DNA from: a virus
Reading direction: 5' to 3' (one strand)
DNA: 20,013 bases
Virus record (IMG/VR): IMGVR_UViG_3300031963_008590
Coordinates: 1 to 20,013 of that record
Shown: piece by piece, positions 3,982-20,013 of the stretch
Numbering within the stretch: the stretch's first letter is position 1
Layout: each line of letters begins with the position of its first letter
The notes under the pieces: model-generated
Told to the model about the DNA's origin: nothing
Databases searched by the model: none
What the model saw: only the letters and a program-made list of their open reading frames with translations
Translations under genes and position numbers: made by a program

Positions 3982-4167
3982 ATGTTAATAGTCACGGTAA
4001 AGAAAAACGACATCGAAAGAGCAATCAAAGAGCTTAAAAGTAAGGTAATCAAAACTAGACAGAATACCTTTTTGAATAACAGACGAGAATTTACAAAAAA
4101 ATCTGTCGAGAAAAGACAGATTTTATCAAAAGCAAAATACAGAGAAAGAAATAACTTACCTAAATAA
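3982..4167 (+). CDS. rpsU: Ribosomal protein bS21 homologue
   Basis: This 61-aa protein is bS21 of the small ribosomal subunit, which sits beside the 3' end of 16S rRNA. The family pattern is plain: MLIVTVKKND at the N-terminus (Bacteroidetes bS21 begin MLI.PVK), IERAIKELKSKVIKT in the first helix, NRREFTKKSVEKRQ in the middle, and a basic C-terminus with AKYRERN. Its length is close to cellular forms (about 64-70 aa). It lies on the opposite strand to every head gene around it, and its last 8 nt overlap the end of the convergent 240-aa gene. A host-like -7 box lies upstream, and no Shine-Dalgarno sequence precedes the ATG. Phage-encoded bS21 is known from pelagiphages and huge phages, where it is thought to enter host ribosomes. 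Tyr53 could match the C-terminal Tyr that helps hide the anti-Shine-Dalgarno in Bacteroidetes ribosomes (from memory). Confidence 0.9.
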   Translation: MLIVTVKKNDIERAIKELKSKVIKTRQNTFLNNRREFTKKSVEKRQILSKAKYRERNNLPK

Positions 4168-10254: not shown

Positions 10255-11232
10255 TTACATTTTAACTGCTTGTTTAATTGCCATCATGAAGTCACTCTTT
10301 TGTTTCTCAACACCTGCTTTTGGTTTTTCTTTAACACCAGGATTAGGATCCTTAAAAGGATTTTGTCTTTTTCTTTCTTTAGTTCCTGGTTTTGTTTTGG
10401 TTCTTTCCTTTTCTTTGGTGTCAGCTTTTGGTTTTTCTTTAACACCAGGATTAGGATCCTTAAAAGGATTTTGTCTTTTTCTTTCTTTAGTTCCTGGTTT
10501 TGTTTTAGTTCTTTCCTTTTCTTTTGTATCCTCCTCTAAAGATTTTCCCATTGAGTATAATTTTCCGATTGGTGTTTTCATTCCTTTTTGTTCTATACCT
10601 GATTCTTTAGAAAACATAGACATTTTTTTTGGATTTTTCAAAATCATACTTTCCAAATTATCAACTTTTTCCATTACGGTTTGAATGATTTCTTTTTTTG
10701 ACATTGTGGGCTCAATGTGTTTTTCAATCATTTCAAAAATCTTATCTTCTAAATATTTTTGATACGCCTCATCTGTTCTATTTTTCTTGTATTTTACAGT
10801 TTTTTCAGGGTGTATTTTTTCAGGCCTATTTTTGTAATCCATTTTTTTTGTGGATTTAGCAAACTCATCTCTCATTTTACACCATTTTTTTTCTTCCTTT
10901 GTTTTACCCGCACCACATTTTGCAAAAAACAATTTTTGTTGTGCTTTAGATGCAAATCTTTCAGAAAGTTCCGTTTCTTTCATTGGTGTCGCTGTAGTCT
11001 TTCCTCCAGTAGTATCTATTTCAACACCGTTAATCATAGTTTTAGAACCAGGTTTTACCAAATATTTTGTTGTTGTTATTGTTTGTGGTGTTGTATTTTG
11101 AGGGACTTGTGCTTGTTCCTTCATAACAAACTTATTAGCTAACAACGCTATTTGATTTTTATTCATTTTTGATATGGTATTGAAATGAATACCATTCTCC
11201 AAAAGAATATCAATATCTCTTTTAGTTTTCAT
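10255..11232 (-). CDS. Basic repeat-containing protein, 325 aa, unrecognised
   Basis: I do not recognise a family. The N-terminal 40 residues are helical. A block SKAQQKLFFAKCGAGKTKEEKKWCKMRDEFAKS (written here in parts: SKAQQKLFFAKC, then KEEKKWCKMRDEFAKS) near residues 93-125 has two Cys and resembles short basic modules seen in phage structural proteins. A helical region runs to about 230. Two identical 36-residue units rich in Lys, Arg, Thr and Pro follow, and the C-terminus is FMMAIKQAVKM. The protein is strongly basic, in contrast with its acidic neighbours, so binding to DNA or to the acidic core proteins is possible. Its start overlaps the end of the upstream 135-aa gene by 11 nt, indicating coupling. 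Confidence 0.8.
   Translation of the reverse strand: MKTKRDIDILLENGIHFNTISKMNKNQIALLANKFVMKEQAQVPQNTTPQTITTTKYLVKPGSKTMINGVEIDTTGGKTTATPMKETELSERFASKAQQKLFFAKCGAGKTKEEKKWCKMRDEFAKSTKKMDYKNRPEKIHPEKTVKYKKNRTDEAYQKYLEDKIFEMIEKHIEPTMSKKEIIQTVMEKVDNLESMILKNPKKMSMFSKESGIEQKGMKTPIGKLYSMGKSLEEDTKEKERTKTKPGTKERKRQNPFKDPNPGVKEKPKADTKEKERTKTKPGTKERKRQNPFKDPNPGVKEKPKAGVEKQKSDFMMAIKQAVKM
10316..10531 (-). repeat. Two 108-bp in-frame tandem repeats
   Basis: Two adjacent 108-bp units, 10316-10423 and 10424-10531, differ at only about four bases by eye. Each encodes the same 36 residues (DTKEKERTKTKPG ... VKEKPKA). The differences within codons I compared (GAC/GAT, ACC/ACA, ACC/ACT) are synonymous, which points to a recent duplication with the protein sequence conserved. 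Confidence 0.92.
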
Positions 11233-13222: not shown

Positions 13223-13978
13223 TTATTGATTCATAGACAATTTTTTGTCTATTAGCTCAACTGATTTATTATGTAGCTTCTCAATATAACCGTTCCTTCG
13301 TAATATTTTGAACACCAAATTCTCAACAGAGTATTCGCCATTTTTTTCTAATCCAGATGTTCTAAATTTTTTCAATTTGTCTTTATATTTTTTTACTATA
13401 TTTTTTGCCGTTTCTAAATCGTCATCATCAATTGAGTCTATAAGGGTGTCAATATTTTTCATCCATTCCCTTGCTTTACTCAATATTAGTTTTTTATCTA
13501 TCTCAACATTTTCTTTCTTTGGGTTATTTGCCCATTCATCAAACAGTATCGAATAAACTCCACTACTGAAGTGTGTTTCGGTTTCATTTTGAACGTATAG
13601 CTCAACTTCATAACCTTTTATTCTAATGTCATGTTTGTCATTAAATATCATTTTTTTCAGTGTGAATAACTTTTCGTATAAGTCAATTTGACTTTCATCA
13701 TACTGTTGGAAATTTGCGACAATATGTAAATCAAAGTCTGAATACTTCGACCAATTGTAGTTTGCTAATGAACCTGTAAGAATTATATCAGTAACAATTA
13801 TATCAACGTCCAAAAATTCAATAAACTCATACGCTATTTCAAGAAGTCTATTTCTAATTTCAGGTTTTAATTTAAGTTCTTGTCCATCAGAGTCCTTCGG
13901 ATTTCCTTCAGGTGAAACCCAAACTTTAGGATTTAACTCTTTTTGAGGTATAAAACTTTTAATAATATCATTATTCAT
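13223..13978 (-). CDS. Nucleotidyltransferase-fold protein
   Basis: A 251-aa protein of the polymerase-beta-like nucleotidyltransferase superfamily. The signature ILTGSLANYNWSKYSDFDLH carries the Gly69-Ser70 loop and the paired metal ligands Asp81 and Asp83. A plausible third carboxylate is Glu126 in YEVELYV on the next strand. A helical C-terminal domain follows (residues 150-250). The active-site residues are intact, so it is probably catalytic, transferring an NMP to an unknown target; kinase- or tRNA-directed roles cannot be told apart from sequence. The start could be TTG at 13981, but ATG at 13978 is preferred. The TATTTATA box ends only 4 nt before that ATG. It sits between structural and host-directed genes and the KTSC gene upstream. 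Confidence 0.85.
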   Translation of the reverse strand: MNNDIIKSFIPQKELNPKVWVSPEGNPKDSDGQELKLKPEIRNRLLEIAYEFIEFLDVDIIVTDIILTGSLANYNWSKYSDFDLHIVANFQQYDESQIDLYEKLFTLKKMIFNDKHDIRIKGYEVELYVQNETETHFSSGVYSILFDEWANNPKKENVEIDKKLILSKAREWMKNIDTLIDSIDDDDLETAKNIVKKYKDKLKKFRTSGLEKNGEYSVENLVFKILRRNGYIEKLHNKSVELIDKKLSMNQ

Positions 13979-13982
13979 CAAA

Positions 13983-14314: not shown

Positions 14315-14680
14315 TTACTTCAAGGAGTTGATTTTATCTCTTAACTCAATTGCCTTTTCGAAATCTTGTTTTTTGATACATTCGTCAAGTTCTGTTTTGA
14401 GCTTACTTATTTTCTCTTTGTTTTTTTCCAAAGTTTTTATTTTATCTCGTAACTCCACTGCTTCTTCAAATTTCTGTTCTTCAACCGCCATGTCAAGTCT
14501 TTGTTTGAGTAATGAAATCTCTTCAGATTCATTTAATTTCTCTTTTTTATTTGTTACATAAGTAAAAGAAATCATACCATCTTCAGATTTATAAGTTTTC
14601 TTTTCCCATCCGTCATTTAAGAATGTGTCTTCCATTCTAAACAAGTCATTGATAATTTTGTTAAAGTGACTGTTAAACAT
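14315..14680 (-). CDS. Small protein with two UVR motifs, putative Clp adaptor
   Basis: The protein is 121 aa. Residues 1-45 form a small N-terminal segment with WEKKTYKSEDGMISFTYV. Two UVR motifs follow: LLKQRLDMAVEEQKFEEAVELR (residues 58-79, cited in parts: LLKQRLDMAVEEQKFEE, AVELRDK) and LKTELDECIKKQDFEKAIEL (94-113). UVR motifs are helical hairpins that mediate protein contacts in UvrB, UvrC, ClpC and the ClpC regulator McsA. The motif here also occurs in the ClpC-like protein encoded divergently 160 bp away. McsA zinc-finger cysteines are absent, so it is not a full McsA. The start at 14680 is preferred over an upstream ATG at 14773, which would fuse a hydrophobic leader spanning the divergent promoter region. 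The adaptor role is inferred. Confidence 0.8.
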   Translation of the reverse strand: MFNSHFNKIINDLFRMEDTFLNDGWEKKTYKSEDGMISFTYVTNKKEKLNESEEISLLKQRLDMAVEEQKFEEAVELRDKIKTLEKNKEKISKLKTELDECIKKQDFEKAIELRDKINSLK

Positions 14681-14747
14681 TTTTTCATTTTTTTTATAGT
14701 TTATTTTGATTTTCCTATAAGCTAAAACAATGCCAAAAATTAAAACA

Positions 14748-14776
14748 TGACAAAATGTCAGTATAACTGACAAAAT
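14748..14776. promoter_or_regulatory. Candidate operator between UVR and clpC genes
   Basis: TGACAAAATGTCA is an inverted repeat with 5-bp arms, and a direct copy TGACAAAAT begins 20 bp after its start, about two helical turns. It lies in the 159-bp divergent intergenic region. It could bind a dimeric regulator of both genes. I see no convincing TAnnTTTG promoter for either gene here. Confidence 0.35.
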
Positions 14777-14839
14777 AACAAAAAAGACAATTCTTTACTA
14801 TAACAAAGTATATTATTAATCTTTATAAAAATTAGAATT

Positions 14840-16906
14840 ATGGCAATAGAGTTTATTGATGACGGAGATAAGGGTAAAAGTAAATCAAGTAACAGTGGAA
14901 CACCAGTACTTGATAATTTTAGTAAAGATTTAATTAAACTTGCCGAAGAGGGTAAATTAGATCCTGTAATCGGTAGAAAAAAAGAAATTATTAGAATTGC
15001 ACAAGTTTTATCAAGAAGAAAGAAAAACAACCCAATTATTATTGGAGAACCTGGTGCGGGTAAAACCGCAATTGTTGAGGGTTTAGCTATGTTGATTCAC
15101 GCGGGTGAGTGTCCAAAGAATTTGTCAGAAAAGAGAATTATTTCTTTAGATATAAACTCAATTGTTGCAGGGACGAAATACCGAGGACAATTTGAAGAAA
15201 GAATGAAGGTGATTATTGAGGAATTACAGTCGAGTCCGAACATTATAATTTTTATCGATGAAATTCACACTATGGTTGGTGCGGGAAATAGTTCAGGTTC
15301 TTTGGATGCATCTAACATCTTCAAACCAGCTCTATCAAGAGGTGAAATACAATGTATTGGAGCAACAACTCTTGATGAGTATAGAAAACATTTTGAGAAA
15401 GATGGTGCATTAGAAAGAAGGTTTCAAAAAATAATTATCGACCCATCCACAAAAGAGGAGACTTTTGAAATTCTCAAATTGAGTAAGGATAAATATGAGG
15501 AACATCACAAAGTTAATTACAACGATGAGTCGTTGAGGTTGTGTGTTGAGTTAGCAGATAGATATATCACAGATAGAGAGTTTCCAGACAAAGCATTCGA
15601 CATTTTGGATGAGGTTGGTTCAAGAATGCAAATTGACATTAAATTACCTGAATACATCGAGGATTTGAAACAAGAAGCCGCAGACATCAAGAAAGAAAAA
15701 GTTGAGGTTATTAAAAAACAAAAGTATGAGTTAGCAGCAGAGCTTCGAGATAGAGAAAAAAATGTTTTAAAAAAATTAGAAGATGAAAAGATTAAATTCG
15801 AGGAGGAGTTAAGGATAAGTAAGAGAGGTATTCCTGAAGAACTTATTTATGAGGTTGTTTCAAACATGACAAAAATACCTGTAAGTAAAATCAATATTGA
15901 TGAAAAAAATTCATTGGTTAATTTAGAGGATTCATTAAATAATGTAGTGATTGGACAAGAAGAAGCTGTTAAGAAAATATCTAAATCAATAAGAAGAAAT
16001 AGAGTTGGTATAAAAGATCCAAATAAACCAATAGGTTCATTTATTTTCTTGGGTTCAACTGGTGTTGGTAAGACTTTCTTGGCAAAAAAATTAGCAAAAG
16101 AAATATTTGGAAGTGAGGACAGTCTAATAAGAGTGGATATGTCAGAATACCAAGAAAAACATACTATATCAAGATTGATTGGTTCTCCTCCTGGATATGT
16201 TGGACACGAAGAGGGTGGACAATTAACTGAACAAGTAAAAAACAAACCTTATTCCGTAATTCTTTTTGATGAAATAGAAAAAGCGAACAAAGACATCTTC
16301 TCTACATTACTTCAAATGTTAGATGATGGACATATGACAGATGGATTAGGTAGAAAAATCAACTTCAAAAATTGTTTAATTATTATGACATCAAATATTG
16401 GTGTTAGAAAATTACAGGATTTTGGTACTGGTGTTGGATTCAAAACATCAAACAACAGTGATGCAATACAAGAAGAATATAAAAGAGATGTTCTGAAAAA
16501 AGAGTTGAGTAAATTTTTTGCACCTGAATTTTTGAACAGAATAGATGACGTTGTAATTTTCAATTCCCTTAAAAAGAATCATATTGATGTAATAGTTAAA
16601 TTGGAAATTGATAAATTAGTTACAAGATTAGAAGGAATGAAATATAGTATCGGTTATGAAACATCAGTTATTGATTTAATATCTGAAGTGGGTTTTGATG
16701 AACAATATGGTGCACGACCCATCAAGCGGGCAATCCAAGATAAAATTGAAGATTTAATTTCAGAAAAAATACTACTCGAAGAAATACACGAAGGTAAAGA
16801 CTATATGTTATTTGTAAAAATAGATGGTGAGGATAAAGTTATTGAAATTGAAGAAAGGGTAAAACCTGAACCAAAGAAAAGAGGTAGAAAGAAAAAGGGG
16901 GAATAA
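14840..16906 (+). CDS. clpC: ClpC-like double AAA+ unfoldase without the N-domain
   Basis: Hexameric Clp unfoldases pull substrates into the ClpP protease chamber. This 688-aa protein has two complete AAA+ modules. D1 has Walker A GEPGAGKT (69-76), Walker B IFIDE (Asp140-Glu141), pore loop GTKYRGQ and Arg in LERRF. D2 has Walker A GSTGVGKT (405-412), Walker B ILFDE (Asp477-Glu478), pore loop GYVG (452-455) and FLNRID. Between them is a short middle domain with a UVR motif (KKQKYELAAELRDREK). GTGVGFKT at 530-536 carries the VGF tripeptide that docks ClpC on ClpP. Cellular ClpC is about 810-860 aa; here the 150-residue N-domain is replaced by about 20 residues and the protein begins almost at TPVLDNF. 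A basic tail KKRGRKKKGE ends it. It is the longest plus-strand gene. Confidence 0.93.
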   Translation: MAIEFIDDGDKGKSKSSNSGTPVLDNFSKDLIKLAEEGKLDPVIGRKKEIIRIAQVLSRRKKNNPIIIGEPGAGKTAIVEGLAMLIHAGECPKNLSEKRIISLDINSIVAGTKYRGQFEERMKVIIEELQSSPNIIIFIDEIHTMVGAGNSSGSLDASNIFKPALSRGEIQCIGATTLDEYRKHFEKDGALERRFQKIIIDPSTKEETFEILKLSKDKYEEHHKVNYNDESLRLCVELADRYITDREFPDKAFDILDEVGSRMQIDIKLPEYIEDLKQEAADIKKEKVEVIKKQKYELAAELRDREKNVLKKLEDEKIKFEEELRISKRGIPEELIYEVVSNMTKIPVSKINIDEKNSLVNLEDSLNNVVIGQEEAVKKISKSIRRNRVGIKDPNKPIGSFIFLGSTGVGKTFLAKKLAKEIFGSEDSLIRVDMSEYQEKHTISRLIGSPPGYVGHEEGGQLTEQVKNKPYSVILFDEIEKANKDIFSTLLQMLDDGHMTDGLGRKINFKNCLIIMTSNIGVRKLQDFGTGVGFKTSNNSDAIQEEYKRDVLKKELSKFFAPEFLNRIDDVVIFNSLKKNHIDVIVKLEIDKLVTRLEGMKYSIGYETSVIDLISEVGFDEQYGARPIKRAIQDKIEDLISEKILLEEIHEGKDYMLFVKIDGEDKVIEIEERVKPEPKKRGRKKKGE

Positions 16907-16925
16907 AACCCCCCCCCTTTTTTAA
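16892..16925. terminator. Bidirectional terminator between clpC and the peptidase gene
   Basis: AAAAAGGGGG pairs with CCCCC and TTTTT across a short loop that contains the clpC stop codon, with T-rich or A-rich flanks. It can end both the plus-strand clpC transcript and the convergent peptidase transcript. Confidence 0.75.
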
Positions 16926-17707
16926 TGTCTCTCGTAACCTAACTCTTCTATCATCATCTTACCTACTTTGATTCCATTGTAAGTATCGTCAACAACCACG
17001 TATTCGTTTCTTGTATGATAATTATAATAACCGATTGAGATGTTAAAACAAGATATATTATAATTTTTGTGAAGAGGGTATATATCGGTATAAGGGTGTC
17101 TATGATATTTGGTATCATTTGGGAAGTGTTCTGTAATTAATCTCCCACCGACCTCAAAAAATTTACTACCTCTATCAAACATAGGAACACCCATTAAAAA
17201 TTCTGAAATCATATTATTTTCAGGTGCGTCAAACTGAATTGCATAACCAACGTTCTCAAAAAAGTGGGGGTCTGAGTTAAACGAACCTTTACATCCAGTT
17301 TCTTCTGCAACAAAAAATGCGGCTTTTAAATTTGGTAATTCTTTAAGTAATTCTAAACAGGCGAATACACCACATTTATCATCACCACCAATTCCTGTCG
17401 GTTCTCCATTATCATTATACGCTTTAAGTGATAATTTTACATTACCTTGCGCATCAGATAACATTTCTTCTCTTACGTTGATTGTATCAATAGTATGAAC
17501 CGTATCTGTGTGTGCCACAACACAAGGAAAGAACTCTACATCCTCATCAGTTTCTTTGGTGGCGTAAATGTTATATAACTCATCCACATAATAGGGGATG
17601 TTTTCTTTCTCCAACCAAGTGGTAATAAAGTCAATCATCAAATCCTCTTGGTATGTCTTCGTGGGAACGGACAAAACCTTCTTTAACAACTCAAAATCTC
17701 TTTCCAT
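16922..17707 (-). CDS. Compact M20/M28/M42-type zinc metallopeptidase
   Basis: A 261-aa co-catalytic zinc peptidase. Metal-ligand and catalytic positions can be read in order: VAHTDTVH (His66, Asp68), GIGGDDKCG (Asp109/110, bridging ligand), VAEETGCKGS (Glu135 catalytic base, Glu136 ligand), QFDAP (Asp160) and YYNYHTRNEYV (His231). PepT and similar M20 enzymes are about 370-410 aa with an inserted lid/dimerisation domain, which is missing here, so the protein is essentially the catalytic domain and nearer in size to small M28/M42 forms. It has no signal peptide and should act in the cytoplasm as an aminopeptidase or di/tripeptidase. It lies 22 nt after the 353-aa gene, in the same operon, and converges on clpC. 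The substrate is unknown. Confidence 0.85.
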   Translation of the reverse strand: MERDFELLKKVLSVPTKTYQEDLMIDFITTWLEKENIPYYVDELYNIYATKETDEDVEFFPCVVAHTDTVHTIDTINVREEMLSDAQGNVKLSLKAYNDNGEPTGIGGDDKCGVFACLELLKELPNLKAAFFVAEETGCKGSFNSDPHFFENVGYAIQFDAPENNMISEFLMGVPMFDRGSKFFEVGGRLITEHFPNDTKYHRHPYTDIYPLHKNYNISCFNISIGYYNYHTRNEYVVVDDTYNGIKVGKMMIEELGYERH

Positions 17708-17729
17708 CCCGTAAAGATAAAAAAAGATT

Positions 17730-18791
17730 TTAACTATACAAAATTTTGTTGATTATTTTTTTTATGTGTTCAAATAATTCAGGGTGATATAAAGATAAGT
17801 TTAAATCTTCAATATTATCAACACTTCTTTTTTCCATACCACCATTTTGTTTTTCAACTACAAATACCAATTTGTTTGTTTTTGGATCCAAACTATCAAA
17901 TTTTACTCTTATGTTTTTTTCAGGTATGTCTATATACTTATCAAATCCACCTAAATTAGCAACTGTTGCATACAATTTATCATATTGGTGAGCATCGGGA
18001 TTTTCTTCAATCTCCTCCTCAATTTGGTCCATTATTTTATCTAAATTCCATGCAACATCACGATTGAATCCTTCAGAATCATAGTCGTCACACCATACAT
18101 TGTATTCAAGTTCATACCATCCACCTCTACTACTATTTCTATCGTATGTTGCAATTAGTTTAGTGAGCATACCTTTCAAGTCCTCATCTTCTGCTCGTAA
18201 CTTTTTATACCAACCAATCAATACACCAACAGTAGTTTCATACTTATAATGAGCACTTATTTCTTTTATTCCAAATTTATAAAAAGGGTTTTTAGTGTCT
18301 AATAGTAATTCTTTCTGAACCGCTCTTTCTTTACAATCTTCGTTTTTTTGTCCGTATTCGGAAGTAATATTCCCAACCCACCTATCAAATCTTTTTTCTA
18401 AAAATTTTGCAATGGCACTACTATTTTCATCATTTACTTGTAATCTAGGATTTAGATATTTTAATATTTCATTTAATTTTTCTTTATTACTTTCATCAAA
18501 CCCCTGAATCACATATCCTTCTCTCCATTCATCTTCGGCCCAATAAGTATCATAATCTCTATAACCATAATTACCCATAAATCTTCTCCATGCGTACATA
18601 TCATCGTCATCATCAATACCTAATACATTTAGAAAATCTTCATCTTCATCAAATGTGATTATAACTTTACTTGAAGTTGAGTACTTGGCAGGTATTACGT
18701 CATAGATTAAATCATCTGGATAACGCCATCTAGTACCAACCTCACCACCCTTATAGATATTCATTAAAAATTCAAACGTTTCACTTGCCAT
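17730..18791 (-). CDS. Unrecognised acidic 353-aa protein
   Basis: I do not recognise a family. The protein is acidic and aromatic-rich (for example DMYAWRRFMGNYGYRDYDTYW near residues 65-85 and GWYELEYNVWCDDYDSEGF near 220-240). There is a helical middle (EKRFDRWVGNITSEYG) and a beta-like C-terminal third (IRVKFDSLDPKTNKLVFVVE), ending in ELFEHIKKIINKILYS. There is no signal peptide or membrane segment. It is the first gene of a two-gene operon with the metallopeptidase, with a one-mismatch promoter box only 5 nt before its ATG. It is divergent from the tmRNA gene. A function linked to the peptidase is possible but not shown. Confidence 0.8.
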   Translation of the reverse strand: MASETFEFLMNIYKGGEVGTRWRYPDDLIYDVIPAKYSTSSKVIITFDEDEDFLNVLGIDDDDDMYAWRRFMGNYGYRDYDTYWAEDEWREGYVIQGFDESNKEKLNEILKYLNPRLQVNDENSSAIAKFLEKRFDRWVGNITSEYGQKNEDCKERAVQKELLLDTKNPFYKFGIKEISAHYKYETTVGVLIGWYKKLRAEDEDLKGMLTKLIATYDRNSSRGGWYELEYNVWCDDYDSEGFNRDVAWNLDKIMDQIEEEIEENPDAHQYDKLYATVANLGGFDKYIDIPEKNIRVKFDSLDPKTNKLVFVVEKQNGGMEKRSVDNIEDLNLSLYHPELFEHIKKIINKILYS

Positions 18792-18796
18792 ATGAA

Positions 18797-18804
18797 AATA
18801 AATA
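18797..18804 (-). promoter_or_regulatory. TATTTATT box before the 353-aa gene
   Basis: Seven of eight match on the coding strand, 5 nt before the ATG, so the transcript could be almost leaderless if this is a -10-like element. Confidence 0.45.
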
Positions 18805-18812
18805 TCCTAACA

Positions 18813-18844
18813 TTTGGATATATTTAATATTATACATATATTTG
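18813..18844 (+). promoter_or_regulatory. Bacteroidetes-type promoter of the tmRNA gene
   Basis: TTTG at 18813-18816 is followed after 20 bp by TATATTTG at 18837-18844, which fits the Bacteroidetes primary sigma consensus TTTG-N(19-20)-TAnnTTTG. It lies 28 nt before the mature tmRNA 5' end, so host polymerase could transcribe tmRNA without phage factors. This is the best host indicator in the window. Confidence 0.8.
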
Positions 18845-18871
18845 TATATAGACATAGTTCTTTGAAAATAT

Positions 18872-19282
18872 GGGGGTGTTTTTGGATTTGACAGGCGTTG
18901 GCTGAGGAATAAGGGCACGTGGGGACTGAATTAATCTCCTTAAAAACTGATTCAGAAAAACAACTGGCAATGTGCTAAACAAAATGGAAGCAATCGGATT
19001 AATCCGTACTTCTGACGTAACTGTAGCTTAATCGTTACACAAACGGAGGGTCGGTGGACATATAACCTAGTAACAGAAGTCCCTACAAAGGTGGACTACG
19101 ACTAAACCCGAAATTGAGTCGTCCATTGGTTGTTGGTTTACGATGGTGAAGAACAAATCAACTTTGTTTCTAATCAAATTAAAATTAGATATTTTGGGGT
19201 ATTAGAAAATACCAACCTAAACGTGTAGTCCTTATCTGACAGGATGTTATGGACGAGGTTTCGACTACCTCCACCTCCACCA
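18872..19282 (+). ncRNA. ssrA: Transfer-messenger RNA (tmRNA), one-piece
   Basis: The 411-nt RNA rescues stalled ribosomes and appends a degradation tag. The acceptor arm is GGGGGTG (18872-18878) with CACCTCC (19272-19278, one G-U) and an encoded ACCA end at 19279-19282. The T arm is GAGGT-TTCGACT-ACCTC. Conserved 5' TTTGGATTTGACAGG resembles the tmRNA D-arm region. Helix P2 pairs ATAAGG and CACGT with ACGTG and CCTTAT. The tag stop TAA (19029-19031) lies in the loop of a GTAAC/GTTAC hairpin, the canonical P5 arrangement. The tag frame ends RTSDVTVA. The resume codon is uncertain; GGC at 18966 would give a 21-residue tag beginning GNVLN. No smpB was seen in the window. A host-type promoter precedes it and a terminator follows 3 nt after the CCA end. 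Confidence 0.95.
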
Positions 19283-19740: not shown

Positions 19741-20013
19741 TTACTTTTCTTTTTTCTGATTCAGTGTTTTGTCAACTCGTTTGTCTGTATAACTGATAGA
19801 TTCCTCAAACTTTCTTTCAAGTTCTCTGTAAATACTATCAACAGATTCTCTCCAATCACGATTTTTTTCATCTGTATGACGATATAGATTTTCTACGTCT
19901 CGTCTCCAATTGTTCTTTTCGTCTTGGACTTCCTTGCTCAACTTATACAACTTAATCATACCCACAATCAGAACCCCAATTATAATAAGAGCAAAAATCG
20001 TAAGAAAACCTAG
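19741..20013 (-). CDS. Membrane-anchored coiled-coil protein, cut by right edge
   Basis: The frame is open from the window edge for 91 codons, and the true start lies outside. The first in-frame ATG at 19965 is probably internal. Before it the frame reads LGFLTIFALIIIGVLIVGM, a hydrophobic segment long enough to span the membrane. The exposed remainder is strongly charged and helical, with a repeated Trp-Arg pattern (NNWRRDVENLYRHTDEK then NRDWRESVDSIYRELERK), ending in TLNQKKEK. This suggests an N-terminal anchor with a cytoplasmic coiled coil. The family is not recognised; spanin, holin-regulator and cell-envelope roles cannot be told apart. A terminator follows the stop codon. Confidence 0.72.
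   Translation of the reverse strand, partial: LGFLTIFALIIIGVLIVGMIKLYKLSKEVQDEKNNWRRDVENLYRHTDEKNRDWRESVDSIYRELERKFEESISYTDKRVDKTLNQKKEK

Follow-up and report, generated by a model that had tools for sequence, protein, structure and literature searches.

Transfer-messenger RNAs (tmRNAs) encoded by phages have, to our knowledge, been catalogued for years with no role assigned to them. In the passages of the Melnitz paper covered here, the gene ssrA is counted in 402 of 18,146 phages, given as 2.3%, and recycling of host protein by tagging is already speculated for the tmRNA of this phage (PMC9004378). Among the translation genes of huge phages, tmRNAs and SmpB were reported (Al-Shayeb et al. 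2020, PMC7162821), and freshwater Bacteroidetes phages encoding the ribosomal protein bS21 have genomes of up to 331 kb (Chen et al. 2022, PMC9723584). Here, a locus of the virus record IMGVR_UViG_3300031963_008590 is described, in which a tmRNA with a tag of its own lies downstream of the genes of a ClpC-type unfoldase and a metallopeptidase. The window analyzed is the entire virus record, 20,013 bases long. A preliminary description of its sequence had placed a UVR protein, a ClpC-like unfoldase, a metallopeptidase and a tmRNA within a possible protein-turnover island, and all four were recovered there by profile and Rfam scores (PF02151, PHROG 4871, PHROG 4191 and RF00023). Because the record is a 20-kb fragment, relatives were used for questions of linkage, namely, 80 ClpC loci from viral contigs, 57 tmRNAs with their tags and 50 relatives screened for SmpB and ClpP. 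This clade is a family of large, widely distributed viruses whose hosts are bacteria of the Bacteroidota type.

The window contains a one-piece tmRNA (ssrA) at positions 18872-19282 on the plus strand, detected with the Rfam model RF00023 at 108.9 bits, where the gathering score is 47; it is full length, with no truncation. Its acceptor is GGG/UCC and includes the alanine identity pair G3.U70. This wobble is kept in 55 of the 57 clade tmRNAs, and compensatory changes are present at acceptor-stem pairs 4-7. Judged by its sequence, the tmRNA appears intact and of alanine identity. ARAGORN called no tmRNA in the window, while the orthologue of the window tmRNA in L379 was called, with a clade-type tag; in view of this call and of the Rfam score, the miss in the window is a problem of sensitivity. 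A blastn comparison of the window tmRNA with named phages gave nothing useful.

The internal tag reading frame of the tmRNA, GNVLNKMEAIGLIRTSDVTVA with its stop codon, occupies positions 18966-19031 on the plus strand, and its resume codon GGC lies in a context as in Bacteroidota tmRNAs. Tags of 21 or 22 amino acids are encoded in all 57 clade tmRNAs, and the residues GL at tag positions 11-12 are invariant in all of them. The clade tags end in VA in 50 cases and in AA in 4, and the window tag ends in -DVTVA. The ratio of nonsynonymous to synonymous substitution rates (dN/dS) is 0.40 across distinct tags and 0.28 in the SEVTVA group, values that come from pairwise comparison of short related sequences and are safe in direction only. 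Frames other than the tag frame are closed by stops in most clade sequences. On these comparisons, the tag is taken to be under purifying selection and virus-specific.

All 26 tags from Bacteroidota genomes are 9 amino acids long and end in ALAA or AMAA (GENNYALAA, GNEEFALAA, DNTSYALAA, etc.). The canonical -LAA end of the ssrA degron (ALAA/AMAA), as in the presumed hosts, is absent from the window tag. Among tmRNAs called by ARAGORN on other viral contigs, after removal of the clade member L379 and phage G, about 66 of 69 tags end in -AA, in a sample that was selected by a tmRNA 3'-end pattern and in which some prophage or host DNA may be present. Non-canonical tags outside the clade were found in Bacillus phage G (AKLNITNNELQVA) and in LR756508, whose 36-amino-acid tag was read in a frame assigned by us. 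The virus-specific tag, which the preliminary description missed, is the most telling feature of the locus.

Expression signals precede the tmRNA. A putative Bacteroidota-type promoter lies at positions 18814-18844 on the plus strand and consists of TTG (18814), 20 nucleotides and TATATTTG (18837-18844); the motif TTG-N17-21-TAnnTTTG was found upstream of the tmRNA in 84% of 57 relatives and in 1% of shuffled sequences. A boxA-like leader element, GTTCTTTGA, at positions 18857-18865 (plus strand), is situated 6 nucleotides before the mature 5' end of the tmRNA and occurs in 75% of 57 relatives and in 0% of shuffled sequences; given its resemblance to boxA of rRNA leaders, a corresponding function may be inferred. 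Several Flavobacteriaceae tmRNA leaders carry a similar element, AGTTCTTT.

The gene of the ClpC-type double-AAA+ unfoldase is located at positions 14840-16906 on the plus strand, and its product matches PHROG 4871 with 780 bits, the match beginning at profile position 163. The best match in PDB is ClpC of S. aureus (6em8), with residues 11-673 of the query aligned to residues 150-808 of the chain; since the alignment begins at residue 150, the N-domain is absent. The protein contains two AAA+ modules with Walker A/B motifs and pore loops, an M-domain with a UVR-like motif and the ClpP-docking VGF loop. All 79 near-full-length ClpC proteins of the clade have lost the N-domain and have kept the D1 and D2 pore loops and the UVR-like motif of the M-domain. 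Clade ClpCs are 665-719 amino acids long (one is truncated at 545), compared with about 846-863 amino acids in most host ClpCs. The docking loop, as VGF, IGF or MGF, was found in 75 of 80 clade ClpCs, the other 5 not being scored; Walker A is kept, and the strict spelling of the D2 Walker B motif is matched in 56 of 79. The unfoldase thus appears from its sequence to be intact and equipped with a ClpP loop.

The gene order nucleotidyltransferase, KTSC, UVR/Hsp20/DnaK, ClpC, M20 peptidase, p353 and tmRNA was found across the 80 ClpC loci. At all 46 loci where 6.5 kb or more of sequence is available downstream of ClpC, the tmRNA is on the ClpC strand, 1.7-5.6 kb downstream (median 2.4 kb), with the peptidase between them. 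The search for co-localization suggested with the preliminary description thus revealed a linkage conserved across the clade, and a same-strand tmRNA at every testable related locus places the grouping beyond chance. Among 79 viral-contig stretches obtained by the tmRNA 3'-end pattern, a ClpC relative is present in only 2, both of which are clade members.

The same description had proposed a search for smpB and clpP in the rest of the genome. Neither was found in the 20-kb record, and both are encoded in relatives. SmpB was detected in 5 of 50 relatives, in 4 of these no more than about 1 kb from the tmRNA, and ClpP in 10 of 50, with an intact catalytic triad in the inspected copies. The 304-kb contig G017 encodes a ClpC with 81% identity, and no ClpP was found on it.

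Divergent from ClpC, at positions 14315-14680 on the minus strand, lies the gene of a small protein with two UVR motifs (Pfam PF02151, 61.1 bits), a candidate ClpC adaptor, for which a start at ATG 14680 is more likely than at TTG 14773. In relatives, 36 open reading frames homologous to it were found at the equivalent position. Its structural model, with a predicted local distance difference test score (pLDDT) of 67, was too poor for structure search. The CxxC zinc-finger N-terminus of McsA was not found; the window protein has one cysteine, and none is conserved in the alignment. Since phage-encoded ClpC adaptors exist, such as Gp53 of SPO1 (PMC6873191), the UVR protein may act on the M-domain of ClpC. 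By Pfam identities, the gene divergent from ClpC encodes a UVR protein at 35 loci, Hsp20 at 15, DnaK at 5 and both DnaK and UVR at 1, and is missing from 23. The phage-encoded DnaK (Hsp70) occupying the UVR slot is full-length in L021 (861 bits), L027, L031, L035 and L053.

Two overlapping dyads, TGACAAAATGTCA (14748-14760) and TGTCAGTATAACTGACA (14756-14772), are present at positions 14748-14772, in the interval that separates ClpC from the divergent UVR gene. In 1.42 Mb of clade DNA, 60 of 68 matches to the dyad TGACAnnnTGTCA fall no more than 250 bp upstream of ClpC. Of 56 loci that have a UVR, Hsp20 or DnaK gene divergent from ClpC, 53 have a looser form of the dyad, and of 23 loci that have no such gene, 20 lack it; for the strict dyad, the association with a divergent neighbor has a Fisher P of about 1e-8, with phylogeny not corrected for. 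Second genomic copies in three relatives lie in or beside a small coding gene preceding a replicative helicase and so do not reveal a wider regulon. A role of the dyad TGACAnnnTGTCA as heat-shock operator of the host was rejected: none was found upstream of host hsp20, and matches in host clpC loci are only sporadic.

An M20/PepT-like metallopeptidase without the dimerization domain is encoded at positions 16922-17707 on the minus strand (PHROG 4191, 124.5 bits). Its Pfam M20 score of 23.8 bits falls slightly short of the cut-off of 24.6, and relatives score above or near this cut-off (28.4 in L018); distant matches in PDB are peptidase T structures 3gb0 and 1fno. The motifs HTDTVH, GIGGDDKCG, EETGC, QFDAPE and GYYNYH are intact, and residues H66, D68, D109, E135/E136, D160 and H231 are invariant across 29 homologues. 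By analogy to peptidase T, the invariant residues of these five motifs would be catalytic or metal-ligand residues, and the peptidase, already described as intact at first reading, indeed looks so. A gene of the M20 family follows ClpC at 76 of 80 loci, and the remaining four loci end too early. Two M20 lineages occupy this slot, one on the minus strand at 56 loci and the other, of 341-370 amino acids, on the plus strand at 20 loci. The longer lineage has an extra C-terminal stretch and is co-directional with ClpC (L018, L021, L025, L060 and others). Between the peptidase and the tmRNA, a conserved protein, p353, is encoded at positions 17730-18791 on the minus strand, with homologues at 60 loci. 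Its AlphaFold2 model has a pLDDT of 90, and a fold search returned no match in PDB or BFVD at E <= 0.001; the best match from a structural aligner (Z 5.0 over 85 residues) was within noise and was rejected.

The genes of the island differ in their upstream elements. The motif TAnnTTTG precedes M20 in 95% of 74 sequences, the window copy being TATCTTTA at positions 17712-17719 on the complement, and precedes bS21 in 87%, where the upstream TTG is rare. Upstream of TerL, portal and protease genes, it was found in 0-4%. ClpC and UVR are marked upstream by the dyad TGACAnnnTGTCA. The predicted island promoters are unlike those of the late structural genes. They also differ from one another, and the island thus does not form a single transcription unit.

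The nucleotidyltransferase-fold protein at the beginning of the conserved order (positions 13223-13981; PF01909, PHROG 36119) adjoins KTSC, and its position is conserved clade-wide. Elsewhere in the window, the bS21 gene noted in the preliminary description was confirmed at positions 3982-4167 on the plus strand (PF01165, 33.1 bits), where it sits among late structural genes; TerL, portal and prohead protease are present in the window, with bS21 on the opposite strand. A protein encoded at positions 10255-11232 contains two copies of a near-perfect internal repeat, KEKERTKTKPGTKERKRQNPFKDPNPGVKEKPKA. On the far side of the tmRNA, positions 19741-20013 encode a short coiled-coil protein with a weak match to Rz-like spanins (E 0.0015).

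The reading that we prefer, tentatively and at just short of an even chance, is a clade-conserved viral cassette for translation rescue and proteolysis, with a private tag and with tagged chains feeding phage ClpC together with host or phage ClpP. In its initial step, which is strongly supported, the phage would transcribe a functional tmRNA from a vegetative promoter of the host type; this tmRNA would be charged with alanine owing to G3.U70 and would partner host SmpB or, in some relatives, phage SmpB. Ribosomes that have stalled on mRNAs that are broken or lack a stop codon would then resume on the tmRNA, as its sequence supports, and the virus-specific tag of 21-22 amino acids would be appended in place of the host tag of the GENNYALAA type. 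Because the tag is without the host -LAA end, tagged chains would reach host ClpXP less often and phage ClpC more often, by which we infer the tag to be read. Phage ClpC, without the N-domain used by host adaptors, would pair with the ClpP of the host or, in a single subclade, with that of the phage. The loss of the N-domain fits direct recognition by the pore, since N-domain-less ClpC1 still unfolds SsrA-tagged protein (PMC6274998). UVR, Hsp20 or DnaK produced from the divergent promoter may help to load or regulate ClpC, and the PepT-like peptidase may trim the resulting peptides. The net effect would be the freeing of ribosomes during infection and the disposal of truncated chains by a virus-controlled route. 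A narrower proposal, that of an orthogonal degradation channel in which the tag is a private degron for the N-domain-less viral ClpC and in which what becomes of products rescued during infection is determined by the virus and not by host ClpXP, is possible, though doubtful.

Several observations weigh against the cassette. The whole neighborhood is syntenic within the clade, so that proximity by itself says little about joint function, and the flanking nucleotidyltransferase and KTSC genes are equally fixed in place. The island genes lie on opposite strands and have three promoter types. In the unrelated huge phages LR745206, LR756508 and LR756501, ClpC is encoded without M20, UVR or tmRNA nearby; two of them have no Rfam tmRNA, and in one the tmRNA lies more than 300 kb from ClpC. 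LR745206.1 (634,780 bp) encodes SmpB at positions 332958-333383 (177 bits) and has no tmRNA by the Rfam model, the permuted form not having been searched for. Neither SmpB nor ClpP is present on most clade contigs, though these are fragments, and the 4 of 57 clade tags with an -AA end could still be host degrons. The fixed flanking genes, the differing strands and promoters and the lack of linkage in the three huge phages would be expected of independent host-takeover genes, each useful alone and held together only by the conserved genome order of the clade, with no shared pathway. Such independence is nevertheless unlikely, as swaps in the divergent slot adjacent to ClpC remain within proteostasis, the peptidase slot is taken by either of two M20 lineages, and SmpB arrives beside the tmRNA; replacements within a proteostasis theme are better evidence for shared function than mere synteny. 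The turnover island proposed at the outset is partly supported: its conserved linkage, its proteostasis swaps, its two M20 lineages and the position of SmpB by the tmRNA speak for it, while its parts do not make up one operon, differ in promoter type and are unlinked in the three unrelated phages. The roles suggested for it in recycling amino acids and in clearing host-defence proteins are speculative.

The tag itself admits another explanation, namely, rescue with a neutral or protective tag, by which ribosomes are freed and chains are spared or otherwise marked, while ClpC, UVR and M20 have general duties and the tag is not read. The canonical -AA end is missing from 53 of 57 clade members and is kept by most other viral tmRNAs, and the tag sequence is conserved nonetheless, which agrees with this explanation. 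We consider it unlikely, since the tmRNA is constantly close to ClpC and a conserved sequence of 21 amino acids with an invariant GL would be needless in a tag that is merely neutral. Finally, the tmRNA could be a passenger from integration into host ssrA, which often serves phages as an attachment site, or a decoy titrating SmpB, the role suggested for the minimal, tag-free tmRNA that is found in mycobacteriophage DS6A (PMC4131195 and PMC11915505, in the passages covered). This is highly improbable and already disfavored: the window tmRNA is full length and has a tag, a promoter and a constrained reading frame, its tag is unlike every host tag found, and no integrase was reported for the bS21-encoding phage group (PMC9723584).

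In comparison with known systems, ClpC of Bacteroidota and Firmicutes shares D1, the M-domain, D2 and the ClpP loop with phage ClpC, to which the best Bacteroidota ClpCs are 55-60% identical, but has the N-domain lost from every clade member. McsA and other UVR adaptors resemble the window UVR protein in that UVR motifs occur in McsA and in the M-domain of ClpC, and the window protein is likewise small and could bind ClpC. Unlike McsA, it has no zinc-binding cysteines; it has two UVR motifs, and its partner, if any, would be a phage-encoded ClpC.

Among described phages, those of the freshwater group (PMC9723584), with predicted Bacteroidetes hosts, encode bS21 opposite TerL, portal, prohead protease and major capsid protein, as in the window, and chaperones and Clp protease are mentioned for them; the main text contains no mention of tmRNA, SmpB, a tag, a peptidase or linkage. 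The main text on huge phages (PMC7162821) treats tmRNA and SmpB in little over one sentence and gives neither tag sequences nor a linkage to ClpC. As here, tmRNA is phage-encoded in Bacillus phage G, in mycobacteriophages and in the OM43 phage Melnitz, and the passages covered of the corresponding papers describe no cassette with ClpC (PMC4131195, PMC9004378). As the preliminary description had supposed, the parts are known singly in phages (tmRNA and SmpB in PMC7162821, Clp proteases and bS21 in PMC9723584), and no account of the combination or of a virus-specific tag was found in the main texts searched, the supplements of PMC9723584 and PMC7162821 being outside this scope.

The question of why phages encode tmRNA becomes testable here, in the form of whether the tag goes to phage ClpC. 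If it does, viruses would rewire translation quality control, beyond the translation initiation addressed by bS21, and the pair of tag and ClpC could be of use to bacterial biotechnology as a ready-made orthogonal degron. Compared with phage tmRNA, SmpB, Clp proteases and bS21 as already known, what appears to be new is the clade linkage and the virus-specific tag: throughout the clade, a tmRNA whose conserved tag differs from the host degron is kept beside an unfoldase without the adaptor domain.

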